Shown: positions 8,658 through 30,090 of the stretch, in pieces
Layout of the letters: each line of letters begins with the position of its first letter
Numbering within the stretch: the stretch's first letter is position 1
Assembly (NCBI GenBank): GCA_025964835.1
Contig: JAOPYB010000199.1
Location: 1-33,090, forward strand
Source: Nocardioides sp.
GTDB lineage: Bacteria > Actinomycetota > Actinomycetes > Propionibacteriales > Nocardioidaceae
DNA length: 33,090 nt
Reading direction: 5' to 3'
Made by a program: the position numbers and the translations under genes
The notes under the pieces: generated by a model
What the model was told of the DNA's origin: nothing
Databases searched by the model: none
The model's input: the letters and a program-made list of their open reading frames with translations, nothing else

Positions 8658-9436
8658 CAGACGCTCCTGTCCAGCTTCGCGGCCTGCGCGCGCATCACCG
8701 CGTCGTACGTCGCGCGGTCGGCCTGCTTGAGGCCGTAGGCGTCGCGGGCCGGCTGGTCGGGGATGATCACCTCGTCGCCGCGCGCCATCCCCTCGAGGAC
8801 GGCGGCCGCGATGTCGTCGGCGGTGATCGAGGAGCTCTCGACCAGCTGCGCGATGACGGCACCGAGGGCGGCGTCCTCGCCCCGCATCGACGCCATCAGG
8901 TTGGTGCGGAAGAAGGACGGGCACACGACGCTCGCGCGGACGCCGTACGCCGCGAGCTCGTGGCCGGTCGTCTCGGTGAGCGCGACGACGGCGGCCTTGA
9001 CCGCGTTGTACGACGCCATCCCGGCGGGGTGCACCAGCCCGGCGAGCGAGGCCACGTTGACGATGTGCCCGGCACCCTGGCGCTTGAACATCGGGACGAA
9101 CGTGCGGGTGCCGCGGACCGCGCCGAAGAGGTTGATCTGGGTGATCCACTCCCACTCGGCCATGGTCGCAACGTCGAGCCGGCCGCCACCGGCGACGCCG
9201 GCGTTGTTGACCAGCACGTCGAGGCCGCCCCACTCCGACTCGACCCACACCAGCGCGGAGGCCCAGTCCTCGTCGGAGGTGATGTCCAGCCGGCGCTCCT
9301 GGTTTCGAGACGGGCGCTGCGCGCCCTCCTCGACCAACGAGAGGTCGGTGGCGAGCACCTCGTCGCCCCGGGCCCGGAACGCCGCAGTGAGCGCGGCACC
9401 GAGGCCGGAGGCCGCGCCGGTGACGAGGACCCTCAC
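8657..9436 (-). CDS. SDR family oxidoreductase
   Basis: RVLVTGAASGLGAAL, VNNAGVAGGG, YNAVKAAV; GTG start at 9436. Confidence 0.9.
   Translation of the reverse strand: MRVLVTGAASGLGAALTAAFRARGDEVLATDLSLVEEGAQRPSRNQERRLDITSDEDWASALVWVESEWGGLDVLVNNAGVAGGGRLDVATMAEWEWITQINLFGAVRGTRTFVPMFKRQGAGHIVNVASLAGLVHPAGMASYNAVKAAVVALTETTGHELAAYGVRASVVCPSFFRTNLMASMRGEDAALGAVIAQLVESSSITADDIAAAVLEGMARGDEVIIPDQPARDAYGLKQADRATYDAVMRAQAAKLDRSV
9300..9336. repeat. Dispersed hairpin element copy inside SDR coding sequence
   Basis: tGGTTTCGAGac GGGCGC-tgc-GCGCCC tcCTCGACCa; encodes LVEEGAQRPSRNQE on the minus strand. Confidence 0.7.
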
Positions 9437-9546
9437 CGGGGTCCCCGGGCGAAGCGGAACGAAGTGAGCATTCGTCTGGGGTGGATCACCGGGGTCCCCG
9501 GGCGAAGCGGAACGAAGTGAGCACTCGTCTGGGGTGGATCACCGGG
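9434..9546. repeat. 53-bp tandem repeat, two copies (9434-9486, 9487-9539) with one mismatch plus a 7-bp third start (caccggg)
   Basis: Unit caccggggtccccgggcgaagcggaacgaagtgagcaNtcgtctggggtggat read directly. Confidence 0.95.
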
Positions 9547-11446: not shown

Positions 11447-11475
11447 TTGACACCCGATGTGACCCCCATTACCCT
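11447..11475 (+). promoter_or_regulatory. Candidate sigma70-type promoter of tctABC: TTGACA-N17-TACCCT
   Basis: -35 at 11447-11452, -10 at 11470-11475. Confidence 0.65.
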
Positions 11476-11478
11476 GTG

Positions 11479-11505
11479 GGAAAAGTTTTCTGCAAGACGA
11501 AAACC
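11479..11505 (+). promoter_or_regulatory. Candidate operator GGAAAAGTTTTCTGCAAGACGAAAACC
   Basis: GAAAA-G-TTTTC palindrome and GTTTTC-N8-GAAAAC inverted repeat; 15-mer shared exactly with 28428-28442. Confidence 0.55.
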
Positions 11506-11525: not shown

Positions 11526-13037
11526 ATGCTTGACGCGCTCACCGGGGCCCTGGGCGAGGTCCTCACCCCGACCTCGCTGCTGATGATGGTGATCGGAGTC
11601 GTCCTCGGCTTCGTGGTCGGCATCCTTCCGGGGCTCGGCGGTGCGGTCACCCTCGCTCTCCTCCTGCCCTTCACCTACTCGATGGACCCGATCCCTGCCT
11701 TCGCCCTGCTCCTCGGCATGTACGTGGTGGCGTCCACGGCAGGTGACATCACCTCCGTGCTGTTCGGCGTCCCGGGTGAGGCGTCATCCGCTGCGGTGGT
11801 CCTCGACGGCTATCCGATGACCCGGCAGGGCCAGGCAGGCCGTGCGCTCGGCGCCGTCCTCACCAGCTCCGCGGTCGGCGCCCTGGTCGGCATCGTGGTG
11901 CTGATCCTGGCCATCCCCGTCATCCGGCCCGTCATCCTCGCGATCGGCCCGCCGGAGTTCTTCGGGCTCGCCCTGCTGGGTCTCACGTTCGTGGTGACGC
12001 TGTCGTCCGGCCAGATGCACAAGGGCCTGCTGGCCTGCCTCTTCGGCGTGCTGGTCTCGCTCGTCGGCCTCGACCCCTCGACCGGAGTGCCCCGGTTCAC
12101 CTTCGGCTCCCTCGACCTCTGGAACGGCGTGAGCATCGTGCCCGTCGTCATCGGGCTCTTCGGTGGCGCCGAAGTGCTCCAGCTGATGATGCAGAAGGGC
12201 AGCGTCGCCAACGTCACCGCCCCGCCCGACGCCGTCCAGGGCGTGAAGTCCGGCATCATGGACACGCTGCGGCGATGGCCGCTCGCGGTTCGCTCCGGCG
12301 CCATCGGCACCGCGCTGAGCCTCGTGCCGGGCATGGGCGGCTCCGTCGCGCAGTTCATCGCCTACGGCCACGCGAAGCAGGTCTCGAAGAAGCCCGAGGA
12401 GTTCGGCAAGGGCTCGGTGGAGGGCGTGATCGCGTCCGGTGCCACCGGCGTCGCCAAGGACTGCGGCTCGCTCATCCCGACCATCGCCTTCGGCATCCCG
12501 GGTTCGGCCTCCAGCGCCGTCCTGCTCAGCGCGTTCCTGATCCTCGGGCTCAACCCGGGCAAGGAGATGCTGACCACCGACCTCGAGGTGACCATGTCCA
12601 TGGTCTGGATCACCTTCTTCGCCACCGTGGTGGCCGTCGGGGCCGCGCTCCTGCTGGTCCGTCCCCTGGCGAAGCTCACCTACATCTCAGGCCCCCTCCT
12701 GATCCCGTTCCTCATCCTGCTGCTCTCGATCGGCGCCTACAGCGAGGCCAACAGCTTCGTCGACATCGTGCTGATGCTGCTGTTCGTCGCCATCGGCGTC
12801 GCCTGCATCCGCTGGGACTGGCCGCGGGTGCCGATGCTCCTCGGCTTCGTGCTGGGCTCGATCCTCGAGCGCTACCTGTTCCTGTCCAACTCCCTCTTCG
12901 GTGCCGACTGGCTTCTGCGCCCGGCCTTCCTGGCCATCGCCGCCTGCATCGTCCTGGTCTTCGTGTCCTACGGCGTGAAGGTGCGCCGCGAACGCCGGAC
13001 CACGCCCGCCCCCGAGCTCGACGAGGTTGCCCGATGA
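11526..13037 (+). CDS. tctA: Tripartite tricarboxylate transporter large permease, TctA family
   Basis: PGLGGAVTLALLLPFTYSMDPIPAFALLLGMYVVASTAGDITSVLFGVPGEASSAA is TctA signature-like. Confidence 0.95.
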   Translation: MLDALTGALGEVLTPTSLLMMVIGVVLGFVVGILPGLGGAVTLALLLPFTYSMDPIPAFALLLGMYVVASTAGDITSVLFGVPGEASSAAVVLDGYPMTRQGQAGRALGAVLTSSAVGALVGIVVLILAIPVIRPVILAIGPPEFFGLALLGLTFVVTLSSGQMHKGLLACLFGVLVSLVGLDPSTGVPRFTFGSLDLWNGVSIVPVVIGLFGGAEVLQLMMQKGSVANVTAPPDAVQGVKSGIMDTLRRWPLAVRSGAIGTALSLVPGMGGSVAQFIAYGHAKQVSKKPEEFGKGSVEGVIASGATGVAKDCGSLIPTIAFGIPGSASSAVLLSAFLILGLNPGKEMLTTDLEVTMSMVWITFFATVVAVGAALLLVRPLAKLTYISGPLLIPFLILLLSIGAYSEANSFVDIVLMLLFVAIGVACIRWDWPRVPMLLGFVLGSILERYLFLSNSLFGADWLLRPAFLAIAACIVLVFVSYGVKVRRERRTTPAPELDEVAR

Positions 13038-13552
13038 GCGCCAACACCCCCGCACACCCCCGCCGGCCCACCATCGACGCCGAGGTCCTCGGCGGCATCG
13101 TGCTGGCCATCGTGTTCGGTGGCGCCTTCTGGCTGGCCCGCGGCTGGGACCGCCAGGCGGCGATCTTCCCGCTGGGCGTCAGCGCCGCGGGGTTCCTGCT
13201 CGCGATCGCCCTGACGGTCCGCGCCCTGACGTCGCGTCGGATGCGCGCCGAGGCCGAGACGCCACACGAGGAGATCGCCGCCGACGACAACCTCGAGTAC
13301 ATCTTCCAGACTGCGACCGCCCGGCAGTGGATCGTCACGCTGGCATGGTTCGGCGGGTTCTTCGTAGCGCTCTACGTGCTGGGGCTCTACGCGTCGGCCC
13401 TCATCTTCACGGTCGCCTACCTCCGCACGCAGGACCGGCGCTCCTGGCTGTTCGTCATCGTCTACGCGCTGGTCCTGGTCGCCGTGCTGTACGGCGCCTT
13501 CACGGTGCTGCTCGCGAAGCCCGTCCCCCCGGGCTTCTTCGGGCTCGTCTGA
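13034..13552 (+). CDS. tctB: Tripartite tricarboxylate transporter small permease, TctB family
   Basis: Hydrophobic ~172 aa protein starting ATGA-overlapped with tctA, between tctA and tctC. Confidence 0.85.
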   Translation: MSANTPAHPRRPTIDAEVLGGIVLAIVFGGAFWLARGWDRQAAIFPLGVSAAGFLLAIALTVRALTSRRMRAEAETPHEEIAADDNLEYIFQTATARQWIVTLAWFGGFFVALYVLGLYASALIFTVAYLRTQDRRSWLFVIVYALVLVAVLYGAFTVLLAKPVPPGFFGLV

Positions 13553-13605: not shown

Positions 13606-14631
13606 ATGAAGAAACTGACCACCGTGGCTGCGCTCGTCGCCTCGGCCCTCGCGTTGAGCAGTTGCCAGCAGGGCTCGGGTTCCAGCAAGACCTCCGGAAA
13701 CTTCGAGGGCGAGACGATCCAGCTGGTCGTGCCGTTCGACCCCGGCGGCGGCTACGACGCCTACGCCCGCCAGCTGGCACCCGCGCTCGCGGACGAGCTG
13801 GGTGCGAAGGTCGTCGTCGTCAACAAGCCCGGCGCCGGTGGCCTGATCGCCCTGAACGGGCTGCGCACCGCCAAGCCCGACGGCACGACGATCGAGATCC
13901 TCAACATGACCGGCACCATCGGCAGCGCGCTCGCGGAGGCCGACGGCGTGCAGTACGAGCCGGAGAAGTTCAGCTACATCGGTCAGATCGGCAGCGAGCC
14001 CGACCTCGTGATCGCGCGGTCCGACGGCGACATCTCGTCGTACGACGACCTTGTCTCGGCGTCCTCCTCTTCGGCCGTCAGGTTCGCGGCCACCGGGCCG
14101 GGCTCCAACGAGTACGTCGACCCGCTGGTGCTCGACGAGGCACTCGGCATCAACAGCGACGTGGTGACCGGCTTCGGTGGTTCCGGCGAGGCGGCCCTCG
14201 CGCTCCTCCAGGGCAATGTCGAGGCCTACTCGCGTTCCCTCTCGAGCCAGCTGCCCACCATCCAGAGCGGCGACGCCGTGCCGGTCCTCGTGCTCGGCAG
14301 CGAACGTCTCGAGGACTACCCGGACGTCCCCACCGTGCTGGAGGAGGCCTCCGACGCCGAGCAGAAGGCGATCCTGCAGTACCACGTCGACCTGCTCGAG
14401 AGCGGACGCACCATTGCCGCCCCGCCGGACATGGACGAGAAGCGCCTGGCCGAGCTGCGCGCGGCCTTCGCCAAGGTCGTCCAGGACCCCGAGTTCATCG
14501 CCGACGGCGAGGCGGCCGGCCGGCCGATCACGTTCCTCGGCGGCGAGGACGTCCAGAGCGAGGTCTCGGACCTCGTCGACGCCCCGGCTGACTACATCGA
14601 CATCCTCAAGGCGGCCTACAGCGGCCAGTGA
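13606..14631 (+). CDS. tctC: Tripartite tricarboxylate transporter substrate-binding protein, TctC family
   Basis: Lipoprotein signal (ALALSSCQQGS); VPFDPGGGYDAYARQLAPALADELGAKVVVVNKPGAGGLIALNGL typical of TctC. Confidence 0.93.
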   Translation: MKKLTTVAALVASALALSSCQQGSGSSKTSGNFEGETIQLVVPFDPGGGYDAYARQLAPALADELGAKVVVVNKPGAGGLIALNGLRTAKPDGTTIEILNMTGTIGSALAEADGVQYEPEKFSYIGQIGSEPDLVIARSDGDISSYDDLVSASSSSAVRFAATGPGSNEYVDPLVLDEALGINSDVVTGFGGSGEAALALLQGNVEAYSRSLSSQLPTIQSGDAVPVLVLGSERLEDYPDVPTVLEEASDAEQKAILQYHVDLLESGRTIAAPPDMDEKRLAELRAAFAKVVQDPEFIADGEAAGRPITFLGGEDVQSEVSDLVDAPADYIDILKAAYSGQ

Positions 14632-14747: not shown

Positions 14748-15581
14748 TCAGACGTCGACGAGGATCTCCTCGAGCCGCGCCGCCGCCGCGTGCAGGTGCC
14801 GCACCACGCTGAGCTGCCGCTTCTGGCTCATCCTGCCGACAGGGGCCGAGGCGTTGATGGCCGCGACGGTCAGACCACGCCGGTTCCGGACGGCCGTCGC
14901 CACCGACACGATGTCGTCGGCCTCGCGCCGGTTGTAGGAGTAGCCGCGCTCGCGCACCCTCTCGAGATCTTCGTCGAGCTCGGCCCGCTCCTCGGGCGAG
15001 AGATGGGCACCCTCGTCTCCCGCTGCGCTGGCCAGGACCTCCTCGAGCTGCGCCGGGGTCAGGTCTGCCAAGATCGCCTTTCCGGTCGCCGTGCGGTGCG
15101 CGGGGAAGAGCTGTCCGGTGCGATCCGCGACCCGGAGGGCGCGCTGCGACTCGGCGCCGGCGACGTAGCGGATGCGCCCGCCCTCGAGCTGGGCGAGGTG
15201 CACTGTCTCGTCGATGGTCACGGCGAGCTCGGAGAGGATCGGGCCGGCCAGCGCGCGGATGTCCATGCTGCGGACCGCGCCGTACCCGATCTCGAGCAGG
15301 GCCGGGCCGGCGGTGTAGACCCCGTGTCCGTCAGCCTGCCGCACGAAGTCGTGGTGCATCAGCATGGCCAGCAGCCGGTGGGCTGTCGAGTGCGCGACGT
15401 TGAGCGAGGTCGAGACGTCGGAGAGGCGGAGCTGCTGACGGTCGCGGAACAGCAGCAACAGTCGCAGTGCGTTGTCGACCGACGAGATGGGATAGGCGGG
15501 AGCCTTCTTCGCGGGCACGTCCTTGCCTTCCGCCTCAGCGGGGCTGTCGGCCACGGGTTCCTCGCTCTCGCTCTCGGTCAT
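14748..15581 (-). CDS. IclR family transcriptional regulator
   Basis: SSVDNALRLLLLFRDRQQLRLSDVSTSLNVAHSTAHRLLAMLMHHDFV wHTH; IclR effector-domain motifs (TGKAILADL, GYSYNRREADDIVSVATAVRNRRG). Confidence 0.92.
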   Translation of the reverse strand: MTESESEEPVADSPAEAEGKDVPAKKAPAYPISSVDNALRLLLLFRDRQQLRLSDVSTSLNVAHSTAHRLLAMLMHHDFVRQADGHGVYTAGPALLEIGYGAVRSMDIRALAGPILSELAVTIDETVHLAQLEGGRIRYVAGAESQRALRVADRTGQLFPAHRTATGKAILADLTPAQLEEVLASAAGDEGAHLSPEERAELDEDLERVRERGYSYNRREADDIVSVATAVRNRRGLTVAAINASAPVGRMSQKRQLSVVRHLHAAAARLEEILVDV

Positions 15582-15679
15582 GGCACAGAGCCTGCGGCTC
15601 GCTGCACACGGGCTCAAGGCCGAGCCTGATCATAGACAGCACAGGGGGTGGTCAGCCCTTCTTGGCACGGTCGGCATGG

Positions 15680-22722: not shown

Positions 22723-22819
22723 TGATTTTCCTTCGAAGTCAGATCCAGAGCGGCGCCCGAGCGGAACCCTGACATTCGGATGTTTTCTCGTGGACAGAAA
22801 GAATGTCTGCTGGGAAGTG

Positions 22820-22849
22820 ACGATACTCACGGCCGGCGAGCGGTGTCAA
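22820..22849 (-). promoter_or_regulatory. Candidate promoter of the ABC/ADH/DUF6282/ALDH operon: TTGACA-N18-TATCGT
   Basis: Minus-strand -35 at 22844-22849, -10 at 22820-22825. Confidence 0.6.
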
Positions 22850-22910
22850 CGGACTGCCACGGGCGGACCCCGCCCGGAAGGACAGCTCGTCGGTCCTGCG
22901 GGCGCCCGAA

Positions 22911-22951
22911 AGCCCCCGGCGACGCGTCCGGAGGCGCGTCCCCGGGGGGCT
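22911..22951 (-). terminator. Strong GC hairpin 3' of the dioxygenase operon
   Basis: AGCCCCCGGCGACGCG-tccggagg-CGCGTCCCCGGGGGGCT near-perfect inverted repeat next to the stop at 22966. Confidence 0.6.
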
Positions 22952-22965
22952 CTGGGCGGACCGGA

Positions 22966-23526
22966 CTAGACGAAGATGGACAGGTTCTTGGCCAGCAGGA
23001 CCGACTGGTCCAGCAGCAGGGTGCGCCGGCAGACCTGCCAGTCGTCCCCGACCTTGCGGAGCCGGTCTCGACGGCGTCCGACCAGGAAGTCGGTCTCGTC
23101 GGCCACCCGGTTGCGGTAGACGAGGAAGCGGCAGCTCACCTCGACCTCGGGCAGCGAGATCTCGTCCAGCCGGATGTTCGTCACCAGGTGCGAGACCCGG
23201 GAGACGGGCTCCTCGGCCCAGTGCACACCCGTCTGCAGCTGCGTCACCCGCATCTCGACGGTGTCCTTGGGCTCGTCGAACCAGCAGACCTCGGCGCCCG
23301 CGCGCGTCTGCTCAAGGCTGTCGACGTCGTCGTACTTGACGTTCATGCGCATCGGCACGGAGTACTGGTAGTCGTCGGCCAGCATGGCCAGCCACTCGGT
23401 GTAGCGCCTCTCGTCGAGCAGGTCTGCCTCGCGGAAGAGGAAGTCGCTGATCTCGTAGTGCAGCGCCATCCGCTCGATCGACGTCGGTGCGGTCATCTCG
23501 GTGGTCCCTTCCTGCGTCGCGCTCAC
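22966..23526 (-). CDS. Aromatic-ring-hydroxylating dioxygenase beta subunit (start GTG 23526 or ATG 23496)
   Basis: FLFREADLLDERRYTEWLAMLADDYQYSVPMRMN...VSHLVTNIRL...RFLVYRNRVADETDFLVGRRRDRLR. Confidence 0.92.
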   Translation of the reverse strand: MSATQEGTTEMTAPTSIERMALHYEISDFLFREADLLDERRYTEWLAMLADDYQYSVPMRMNVKYDDVDSLEQTRAGAEVCWFDEPKDTVEMRVTQLQTGVHWAEEPVSRVSHLVTNIRLDEISLPEVEVSCRFLVYRNRVADETDFLVGRRRDRLRKVGDDWQVCRRTLLLDQSVLLAKNLSIFV

Positions 23527-26444: not shown

Positions 26445-26473
26445 TTATCAAGACGGTTTAATGGCAATACCAT
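26445..26473 (+). promoter_or_regulatory. Candidate leaderless promoter of MFS gene: TTATCA-N17-TACCAT
   Basis: -10 ends 6 nt before ATG 26480; no Shine-Dalgarno visible. Confidence 0.5.
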
Positions 26474-26478
26474 TAAAC
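26456..26478. promoter_or_regulatory. Operator-like perfect inverted repeat GTTTAATGG-CAATA-CCATTAAAC
   Basis: 9-bp perfect arms, 5-nt spacer, in the 43-bp divergent region. Confidence 0.85.
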
Positions 26479-27653: not shown

Positions 27654-28376
27654 GTGCCAGAAGACATCGCCACGGACCTGACCGACGGGCTCTTCCGGCC
27701 GGTGGTCGGGACCCGCATGTCCGCGACGATCGTCGACCAGATCCGTGCCCTGATCCGCTCGGGCCAGCTGCCCGTGGGCGCGCGCCTGCCGGCCGAGCGT
27801 GACCTCTGCACCCGGTTCGGCGTCAGCCGGCTCACGGTCCGCGAGGCGCTGCGGATGCTCGAGGCCAACGGCCTGGTGACCATCCGGCTCGGCCGCGAGG
27901 GCGGCGCCTTCGTCTCCGTCCCGACGACCGGGCAGGTCGGCCAGGGCATCACGGACCTCCTCACGTCGGCGGCCGTGTCGTCCGCCGACGTGACCGACGC
28001 GCGGAGCGTCCTCGAGCTCGGCTTCCTGCCGCAGGTGTGCGAGCGGGCCACCGATGCCGACATCGAGCACCTCCGCGCCCTGTGCGACCACGCGGAGAGG
28101 GCTCGACTGTCGGGTGGCTACGACGTGGAGATGTCGTTCGAGTTCCACCGCCAGCTCGTCGCCGCGACCCACAACCCCGCGGCCGTGATGCTCGTCGACG
28201 CGTTCCGCGACCCGATCCTGCAGTCCCTCAGCGAGGCCCGCCACGTCGGCACGTCCGGCGTCGAGGAGCACCGCGCGATCGTCGAGGCCGTCGCCACCAA
28301 GGACGCCGATCTCGCCGTGGAGCTGATGAGCCACCACCTGCACCGCACCGTCCAGCGGCTGCGGCACGCCGACTGA
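27654..28376 (+). CDS. GntR family regulator, FadR/FCD subfamily
   Basis: IRSGQLPVGARLPAERDLCTRFGVSRLTVREALRMLEANGLVTIR wHTH; FCD-type C-terminus. Confidence 0.93.
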   Translation: MPEDIATDLTDGLFRPVVGTRMSATIVDQIRALIRSGQLPVGARLPAERDLCTRFGVSRLTVREALRMLEANGLVTIRLGREGGAFVSVPTTGQVGQGITDLLTSAAVSSADVTDARSVLELGFLPQVCERATDADIEHLRALCDHAERARLSGGYDVEMSFEFHRQLVAATHNPAAVMLVDAFRDPILQSLSEARHVGTSGVEEHRAIVEAVATKDADLAVELMSHHLHRTVQRLRHAD

Positions 28377-28388
28377 TCCCCGGGACGA

Positions 28389-28417
28389 TTGCCATGCCGT
28401 TCGGGGTCGGCTAGTCT
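28389..28417 (+). promoter_or_regulatory. Candidate promoter TTGCCA-N17-TAGTCT
   Basis: -35 at 28389-28394, -10 at 28412-28417, ahead of the dehydrogenase/aldolase pair. Confidence 0.55.
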
Positions 28418-28426
28418 TCTCTAACA

Positions 28427-28442
28427 AGAAAAGTTTTCTGCA
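28427..28442 (+). promoter_or_regulatory. Candidate operator AGAAAAGTTTTCTGCA
   Basis: AGAAAA-G-TTTTCT perfect palindrome; 15-mer identical to 11480-11494. Confidence 0.55.
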
Positions 28443-28453
28443 CAGTAGGACGA

Positions 28454-29326
28454 ATGAACACTTTTGGGATCATCGGGCTCGGCCGCATGGGGTCGTCGCT
28501 GGCGCGGGCGCTGCTCGCGCAGGGCGTCGTCGTGCACGGTCAGGACCGGGACGCGGACACGGCTGCAGCCGCCAGCTCCGACGGCGTCACCGTCCACGAC
28601 GACCCGGCCTCGCTGTGCGCGGCCGTCGACGTCCTGGTGACCTCGCTGCCCACGGTCGACGCGGTCGTCTCCTGCCTCACCGAGCTGGCCCCGCACGTGC
28701 GGGCCGGGACCCTCGTCCTGGAGACGTCCACCTGCGCTCCGGAGCACGCCGCCGCGCTCGCGCCGGTGCTCGAGGCCAGGGGCGCGACCTTCGTCGACTG
28801 CCCCGTCAGCCGCAAGGCACCGCACATGACGATGCTGGTCGGCGGCCCCCCGGGTGTGCTGGGCGAGAGCGCCGCGGCCCTGGAGCTGGTCTCCGACGAC
28901 CTCGTCTACTGCGGTCGCCTCGGCGGTGGCTACGCCGTCAAGCTGCTCAACCAGTACGTCAAGTACTCCCGCTTCCTCGCGGCCTCCGAGGCGCTGCTGT
29001 TCGCGCGCGGCGAGGGTCTCGACGCCAACGCGGTCCTGCGCGGCCTGCTGTCCGGGACCGGTGCGGAGGCCGGCCTCGGCACCGCCGAGGAGTTCTTCAC
29101 CGGCGACCGCGAGGCGATCGAACGGCACGCCCCGACGGACACGATCGTGAAGGACGTCGAGCTGGCCCGGCGGATGCTCGGCGGTGCCGGCTTCCGCAGC
29201 CCGACCTTCGACGCCCTCGCCGAGTTCTTCCTCGCCGCCGGCGTCACCGACCTGCACGACCGGCCCTACCCCGAGAGCGCTTCCCTGCTCGAGGCCTTCC
29301 GCTACGCCGCCCGAAAGGACAGTTGA
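28454..29326 (+). CDS. NAD(P)-dependent oxidoreductase, 3-hydroxyisobutyrate dehydrogenase-like
   Basis: FGIIGLGRMGSSLARALL Rossmann; GGGYAVKLLNQYVK catalytic Lys region; atypical DCPVSRKAPHMTMLVGG. Confidence 0.85.
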   Translation: MNTFGIIGLGRMGSSLARALLAQGVVVHGQDRDADTAAAASSDGVTVHDDPASLCAAVDVLVTSLPTVDAVVSCLTELAPHVRAGTLVLETSTCAPEHAAALAPVLEARGATFVDCPVSRKAPHMTMLVGGPPGVLGESAAALELVSDDLVYCGRLGGGYAVKLLNQYVKYSRFLAASEALLFARGEGLDANAVLRGLLSGTGAEAGLGTAEEFFTGDREAIERHAPTDTIVKDVELARRMLGGAGFRSPTFDALAEFFLAAGVTDLHDRPYPESASLLEAFRYAARKDS

Positions 29327-30090
29327 TGTTCGCCGAGTCAGGGCCTGCCACCACCACCGAGGACGTCGCCTTCGAGGCGTCGCGGCACGCGGTCGCCACC
29401 GCCTGCCGGATCCTCGCCCATCGGGGGCTGGCCGAGGACGTCCTCGGCCACGTGAGCGTGCGCACCGTCGGGGGGCTGCTCGTCCGCTGCCGGGGCGCCA
29501 ACGAGCGCGGCCTGCTCTTCACGGATCCGGTGGACGTCCGGGAGGTCGACGAGGACGGTGAGCTGGTCGACCAGGGCGACCACGGCTATGCGCCCCCCAA
29601 CGAGCTGCCCATCCACGCCGAGATCCTCAAGGCGCGCCCCGACGTCAGCTCCGTCGTGCACGTGCACCCGCCTGCCGTCGTGGCCGCGGACCTGGCCGGG
29701 CTCGCGCTGCGACCCATCGTCGGCGCCTACAACATCCCCGCCAGCCGGATGGCCAGCGACGGAATCCCGACCTACCCCCGCAGCGTGCTGGTGAACTCCG
29801 CGGCCCTGGGTCGAGAGCTCGCCGAGGCGCTCGGCGACAAGCCGGCATGCATCATGCGGGGTCACGGCATCGTCACCGTCGGCACCACCGTCGCGGAGGC
29901 CGTGAGCCGGGCCCTCAGCGTGGATGCGCTAGCGCGAATGACCCTCTGGGCGACCGTCAACGGGCGACCCCCCGCGCCCCTGCCTCCCGAGGACATCAGC
30001 ACCCTTCCCGATCTGGGCGCCTCCTTCAATGACTCGCAGATGTGGCGCTTCAACGAGGCCGCGCTGGCCGCCGGTGGCTTCGCCCTGTGA
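29326..30090 (+). CDS. Class II aldolase/adducin family protein
   Basis: HAEILKARPDVSSVVHVHPPAVVAADLAG (HxH), MRGHGIVTVGTTVAEAV; TGATG overlap with upstream gene. Confidence 0.92.
   Translation: MFAESGPATTTEDVAFEASRHAVATACRILAHRGLAEDVLGHVSVRTVGGLLVRCRGANERGLLFTDPVDVREVDEDGELVDQGDHGYAPPNELPIHAEILKARPDVSSVVHVHPPAVVAADLAGLALRPIVGAYNIPASRMASDGIPTYPRSVLVNSAALGRELAEALGDKPACIMRGHGIVTVGTTVAEAVSRALSVDALARMTLWATVNGRPPAPLPPEDISTLPDLGASFNDSQMWRFNEAALAAGGFAL

Follow-up and report, generated by a model that had tools for sequence, protein, structure and literature searches.

IclR-family regulators bind A/T-rich boxes, WTTYC and GRAAW, that alternate in direction; three-box alternating sites have been predicted for 32 IclR orthologous groups and include those of PcaU, PobR and HmgR, the site centres lie 20-80 nt upstream of start codons, and a regulon usually consists of the regulator's own operon together with one or two of its neighbours (Suvorova and Gelfand, 2021; PMC8222616). 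Two IclR-family proteins from phthalate-type clusters, the phthalate regulator OphR of Rhodococcus sp. DK17 and the IclR protein of Arthrobacter keyseri pRE1 (40% identity), resemble the case described here in that their clusters encode a class II aldolase decarboxylase and a Rieske dioxygenase. The published OphR motif CGCGTACGCG, however, is GC-rich and unrelated to the Nocardioides sites (PMC8222616). No GAAAA/TTTTC site was found near the iclR gene of A. keyseri pRE1, nor was such a motif seen in the vicinity of IclR relatives of 40-48% identity.

The window (the whole stretch of Nocardioides DNA that was analysed, 33,090 nucleotides) contains a cluster of genes with which a phthalate-like compound is taken up and degraded (Table 1). 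Besides tctABC and a second operon formed by a dehydrogenase gene and phtC, it includes two units on the minus strand, one for ferredoxin reductase and the Rieske dioxygenase, and the other for an NMT1-type ABC transporter, an alcohol dehydrogenase, a DUF6282 protein and an aldehyde dehydrogenase, with iclR as its last gene. An earlier note on this DNA had located iclR (14748-15581) just beyond tctC but left unstated that the gene lies on the minus strand, is convergent with tctABC and ends another transcription unit. Its product is an IclR-family protein with an N-terminal HTH_IclR domain (44.8 bits, 1.1e-11, cut-off 22) and an IclR_C effector domain (120.5 bits, 7.5e-35, cut-off 24; both scored by Pfam on the ORF 14748-15617). 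The only other regulator in the annotated part of the window is the GntR/FCD protein. A 53-bp direct repeat (2.2 copies, 98%) is present at 9433-9546, flanked by short-chain dehydrogenase and acyl-CoA dehydrogenase genes.

Both operons carry, just 3' of their promoters, an exact copy of the 15-mer GAAAAGTTTTCTGCA on the plus strand, at 11480-11494 and 28428-28442, as reported in the earlier note. We consider it likely that both copies serve as operators in a single phthalate-type aromatic acid regulon and are bound by the IclR protein of the cluster, which would repress by blocking RNA polymerase and be released by an inducer. IclR would dock on the AT-rich alternating boxes (GAAAA, TTTTC and GAAAAC), covering the region from the -10 hexamer to about +25, and would thereby repress both tctABC, responsible for uptake, and dehydrogenase-phtC until released by an aromatic carboxylate or a pathway intermediate; through a looser third site before the iclR unit it could also control its own synthesis. 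A repressor blocking initiation is the most likely mode of action, since the sites begin 4 nt (site 1) and 10 nt (site 2) past the -10 hexamers, over the transcription start. The spacer and -10 hexamer of the tctA promoter also contain a degenerate CRP-like element, TGTGA-N6-TTACC (11456-11474), present in the sister genome G172 (see below) too.

Table 1. Promoters, candidate operators and genes of the cluster; coordinates are those of the window.
Feature	Coordinates	Strand	Description
tctABC promoter	11447-11475	+	TTGACA (11447-11452), N17, TACCCT (11470-11475); read from the sequence
Putative operator, site 1	11480-11504	+	GAAAA-G-TTTTC-TGCAAGAC-GAAAAC; three alternating boxes
tctA, tripartite tricarboxylate transporter permease	11526-13037	+	Pfam TctA, 7.4e-129; 59% identity to FB24 TctA
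tctB	13034-13552	+	42% identity to FB24 TctB
tctC, solute-binding protein	13606-14631	+	Pfam TctC; 49% identity to FB24 TctC
iclR, candidate regulator, 277 aa	14748-15581	-	Pfam HTH_IclR, IclR_C
Probable site 3 (looser)	22782-22800	-	TTTCTG-N7-GAAAAC; leader of the ABC-ADH-DUF6282-Aldh-iclR unit
ABC-to-iclR unit promoter	22820-22849	-	TTGACA-N18-TATCGT; 10/12 (shuffles: 0.0 expected); kept in G172
Putative separate operator	26456-26478		GTTTAATGG-CAATA-CCATTAAAC; in the region from which the MFS-gntR and ferredoxin/Rieske units diverge
GntR/FCD regulator	27654-28376	+	Pfam GntR, FCD; 51% identity to FB24 GntR; directly upstream of site 2
dehydrogenase-phtC promoter	28389-28417	+	TTGCCA (28389-28394), N17, TAGTCT (28412-28417); from the sequence
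Site 2, reverse reading	28414-28438	-	GAAAA-C-TTTTC-TTGTTAGA-GAAGAC; three-box form as at site 1
Putative operator, site 2	28428-28442	+	second exact copy of GAAAAGTTTTCTGCA
3-hydroxyisobutyrate-dehydrogenase-like gene, NAD-binding	28454-29326	+	Pfam NAD_binding_2, NAD_binding_11; first gene after site 2
phtC, 3,4-dihydroxyphthalate decarboxylase	29326-30090	+	NCBIfam NF053537 equivalog, 314.7 bits (cut-off 200)

Of the inverted repeats described in the earlier note, GTTTTC-N8-GAAAAC is exact at site 1 (11485-11504), its sole exact occurrence in the window; site 2 bears a partial mirror image of it on its other side. Read on the minus strand, site 2 takes the same three-box form, its third box being imperfect and overlapping the promoter -10, and the pattern GAWAASTTTTC-N8-GAA is common to site 1, site 2 in this reading and the FB24 site described below. 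The 33-kb window has seven GAAAA/TTTTC pentamers, every one of them inside the leaders of sites 1, 2 and 3. Site 3, a probable third operator, would front the operon that ends with iclR, which makes autoregulation likely. Its pattern was found 0 times in shuffles with a gap range set post hoc, and the whole leader is well conserved; for these two reasons we regard the site as probable and not certain. In G172 it is retained with an altered spacer (L012:12831-12814). Further along, the untranslated sequence ahead of the NMT1-type gene includes a stretch of about 45 nt (22768-22725) that is nearly identical in both Nocardioides genomes; indels speak against a coding extension, and no Rfam match was obtained for this segment. 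A conserved GC-rich stem-loop (22870-22970), flanked by the Rieske beta gene on one side and the ABC unit on the other, has no T run and was not scored as a terminator; it probably separates two transcription units.

Comparison with the published IclR operators reveals both agreement and departure. The site centres lie at about -41/-31 from the start codon of tctA, -21 from that of the dehydrogenase gene and -69 from that of the ABC/iclR unit, all within the 20-80 nt range. The convergent (group-1) order of boxes, WTTYC/GRAAW, is found as TTTTC ... GAAAA at site 1, at its counterpart in G172 and at the FB24 site; the boxes of sites 1 and 2 stand 8 nt apart and those of site 3 stand 9 nt apart, compared to the published 7 nt (WTT), 8 nt being known only from the NGT subgroup (NGT-12), which has another box sequence (PMC8222616). 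The order and direction of the three boxes fit at sites 1 and 2 and in FB24, but the divergent boxes are separated by 1 nt instead of the 3-4 nt of catalogued IclR operators (PMC8222616). Likewise, the group-2 consensus TGRAACAN1-2TGTTYCA (PMC8222616) differs from GAAAA-N1-TTTTC, which is 2-3 nt tighter and agrees with it at 9/14 positions at best. As to the regulon layout, a site is clearly present at the adjacent operons, and at the operon of IclR itself through the looser site 3 alone. The earlier note had drawn a comparison with the box of E. coli IclR, TGGAAATNATTTCCA, another A/T-rich odd palindrome, and its count of 9 matches in 14 specified positions is correct but does not amount to a family match; the outer TGG/CCA of that box is missing from the Nocardioides sites, and the protein scores 85.6 bits against the cut-off of 380 for the E. 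coli IclR equivalog. The resemblance to the E. coli consensus is weak support, and the alternating-box architecture (PMC8222616) offers the better comparison. We regard the sites as a well-supported addition to a known kind of operator and not as a new kind of system. Whether they also represent a new IclR operator geometry, with a divergent pair of 1-base gap and a convergent pair that have the central box in common, placed in both orientations to the promoter and reflecting two alternative dimer arrangements of one protein, is a speculation we would put forward tentatively and with more doubt than confidence.

A scan of 216 genomes of the genus detected the two-copy pair in the source genome and in one Nocardioides MAG (G172) alone, whose contig is syntenic with the window (88.6% identity) and whose IclR is 96% identical to that of the window. 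Site 1 is conserved there (L012:1550) and site 2 is exact and syntenic (L012:18474). The promoters persist as TTGACA-N17-TACCGT for tctABC, kept despite diverged upstream sequence, and TTGCCA-N17-TAGCCT for dehydrogenase-phtC. In the inner spacer of site 2, which separates the outer box from CAAGAAAAG, every one of the five bases is changed, with CTTC, GAAAAGTTTTC and CAAGAAAAGTTTTCTGCA unaltered beside it. G172 was also the sole return of a genome scan with the IclR alignment, and a TctA scan of 375 genomes of the class found the source genome alone.

A plasmid search revealed a homologous cluster, MFS-gntR-Rieske-iclR-phtC-tctABC, on plasmid 2 of Arthrobacter sp. FB24 and on pASPHE302 of Pseudarthrobacter Sphe3, with orthologues of the Rieske alpha subunit (79%), TctA (59%), PhtC (58%) and GntR (51%) and with GntR-type and IclR-type operators conserved. 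The gene order differs from that in Nocardioides, dehydrogenase-phtC and tctABC being divergent around one operator; in FB24, tctABC, the dehydrogenase gene and the aldolase gene are arranged in this way around the site, and iclR adjoins. The intergenic region shared by the two FB24 operons contains TTGACA...GATAAGTTTTCCGGACCGCGAAAAC, TTGACA occupying the place that matches the Nocardioides promoter, and the site itself (L029:22398-22422) lies behind the tctA promoter as GATAAGTTTTC-N8-GAAAAC, so that GTTTTC-N8-GAAAAC is exact in both lineages. This position is the only match to GAWAASTTTTC-N8-GAA in the FB24 stretch, and none occurred in shuffles. Lack of conservation upstream of orthologous tctA had been named beforehand as a finding that would speak against a shared operator; the core was found upstream of tctA of FB24, from another order of Actinomycetes. 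The independent lineages with the site number only two, the Nocardioides pair and the Arthrobacter plasmid. Another exact GTTTTC-N8-GAAAAC is located on the FB24 plasmid at L029:10294-10313, in an intergenic region near a XerD-type recombinase unit. Two loci with a Rieske alpha relative of 74-76% identity, one on a Mycolicibacterium rufum plasmid and one in genome G561, were set aside: they lack the motif, and neither tctABC nor a close orthologue of IclR is present.

The iclR gene is frameshifted on both plasmids (FB24, L029:19786-20560; Sphe3, L030), in FB24 with 46/42% identity to the Nocardioides protein in two frames, and the operator-like site is intact. Conservation on these plasmids therefore does not prove the use of the site by IclR, and the FB24 lineage is better evidence for the site than for the protein. 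The broken iclR beside an intact site, and the quarter of the source genome (G000) that is absent from its 3.56-Mb draft (546 contigs, 72% complete), speak for a binder whose gene lies outside the cluster, with iclR placed here only incidentally. We nevertheless regard this explanation as unlikely, because the sites are confined genome-wide to this cluster, including the leader of the iclR unit, which argues for a local regulator. In the draft genome, neither GAAAAGTTTTCTGCA with up to two mismatches nor the 11-mer GAAAANTTTTC occurs beyond the two sites, which answers the concern raised in the earlier note about random genomic matches, and GTTTTC-N8-GAAAAC with up to one mismatch is found at 11485-11504 only. 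With one mismatch allowed, GAWAASTTTTC-N8-GAA returned from the whole of G000 and G172 just the sites, apart from a second match within site 1 that overlaps the first and has one mismatch, and it is absent from genomes G196 and G561. Several matches were set aside: an exact 15-mer in genome G217 (L018; 8.2 Mb, same order) adjoins bioB and is unrelated, single-mismatch matches in other genomes of the genus (L003-L008, L010) showed neither a visible link nor a pair, and one-mismatch 11-mers elsewhere in the source genome (L045-L047) have apparently unrelated neighbours.

The GntR/FCD protein, whose gene adjoins site 2 and is kept in the FB24 cluster (51%), could instead bind the GAAAAGTTTTC sites. 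We find this improbable, as the MFS-gntR promoter of both Nocardioides genomes has kept another palindrome, AATGG-N5-CCATT, which is single-copy in each genome, recurs in FB24 at the promoters of MFS-gntR and ferredoxin (L029:14041, 16074) and has no equivalent at sites 1 and 2. The spacing TGG-N5-CCA, that of FadR-type sites, is seen at 26460-26474 and is missing from both sites. The palindrome at 26456-26478 is likely to be bound by GntR and to define a second regulon. The FB24 dehydrogenase/tctA intergenic region contains a one-mismatch copy of AATGG-N5-CCATT (L029:22349). As GntR has a candidate operator of its own, IclR remains the local candidate and is most likely the binder of the GAAAA/TTTTC sites; the proposal of the earlier note, that two operons share an operator and that the local IclR is the first candidate to bind it, draws support from the conservation of the core, its rarity, the probable site 3 and the separate GntR operator.

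Since the repeats sit in the initially transcribed region, they might act as a leader RNA hairpin or as promoter or UP elements with no protein-bound operator involved; this is very improbable, given that no RNA folding signal was detected (z = -0.09 and +0.79), Rfam yielded no match for a leader RNA, and the mirror orientation of site 2 suits DNA and not RNA. The least credible explanation, with next to nothing to recommend it, is a chance or spread repeat element: the window does hold 58 repeated 15-mers, against an average of 15 in Markov simulations, but the others are GC-rich (7 A/T at most, compared to 10 in GAAAAGTTTTCTGCA), GAAAAGTTTTCTGCA is placed at two promoters and conserved in two lineages, and the differing flanks of its two copies show that it is not a duplicated segment. 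The argument from improbability in the earlier note accordingly holds for AT-rich 15-mers, none with 10 A/T being repeated in 60 simulations, and not for repeated 15-mers as such. Moreover, GAAAAGTTTTCTGCA with up to three mismatches has no further match in the window (0.01 expected from shuffles), and GTTTTC-N8-GAAAAC occurred in 0 of 20,000 simulated intergenic regions.

The proposed operator gives an uncharacterised IclR protein a testable regulon comprising uptake, the dehydrogenase and decarboxylase, and probably its own operon. In the aromatic-acid cluster common to Nocardioides and the Arthrobacter plasmids, it sets the IclR regulon apart from that of GntR with its AATGG-N5-CCATT element. 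Repressor-operator pairs for phthalate-type compounds are useful as sensors, and the site could serve to probe the alternative dimerisation proposed for IclR proteins.
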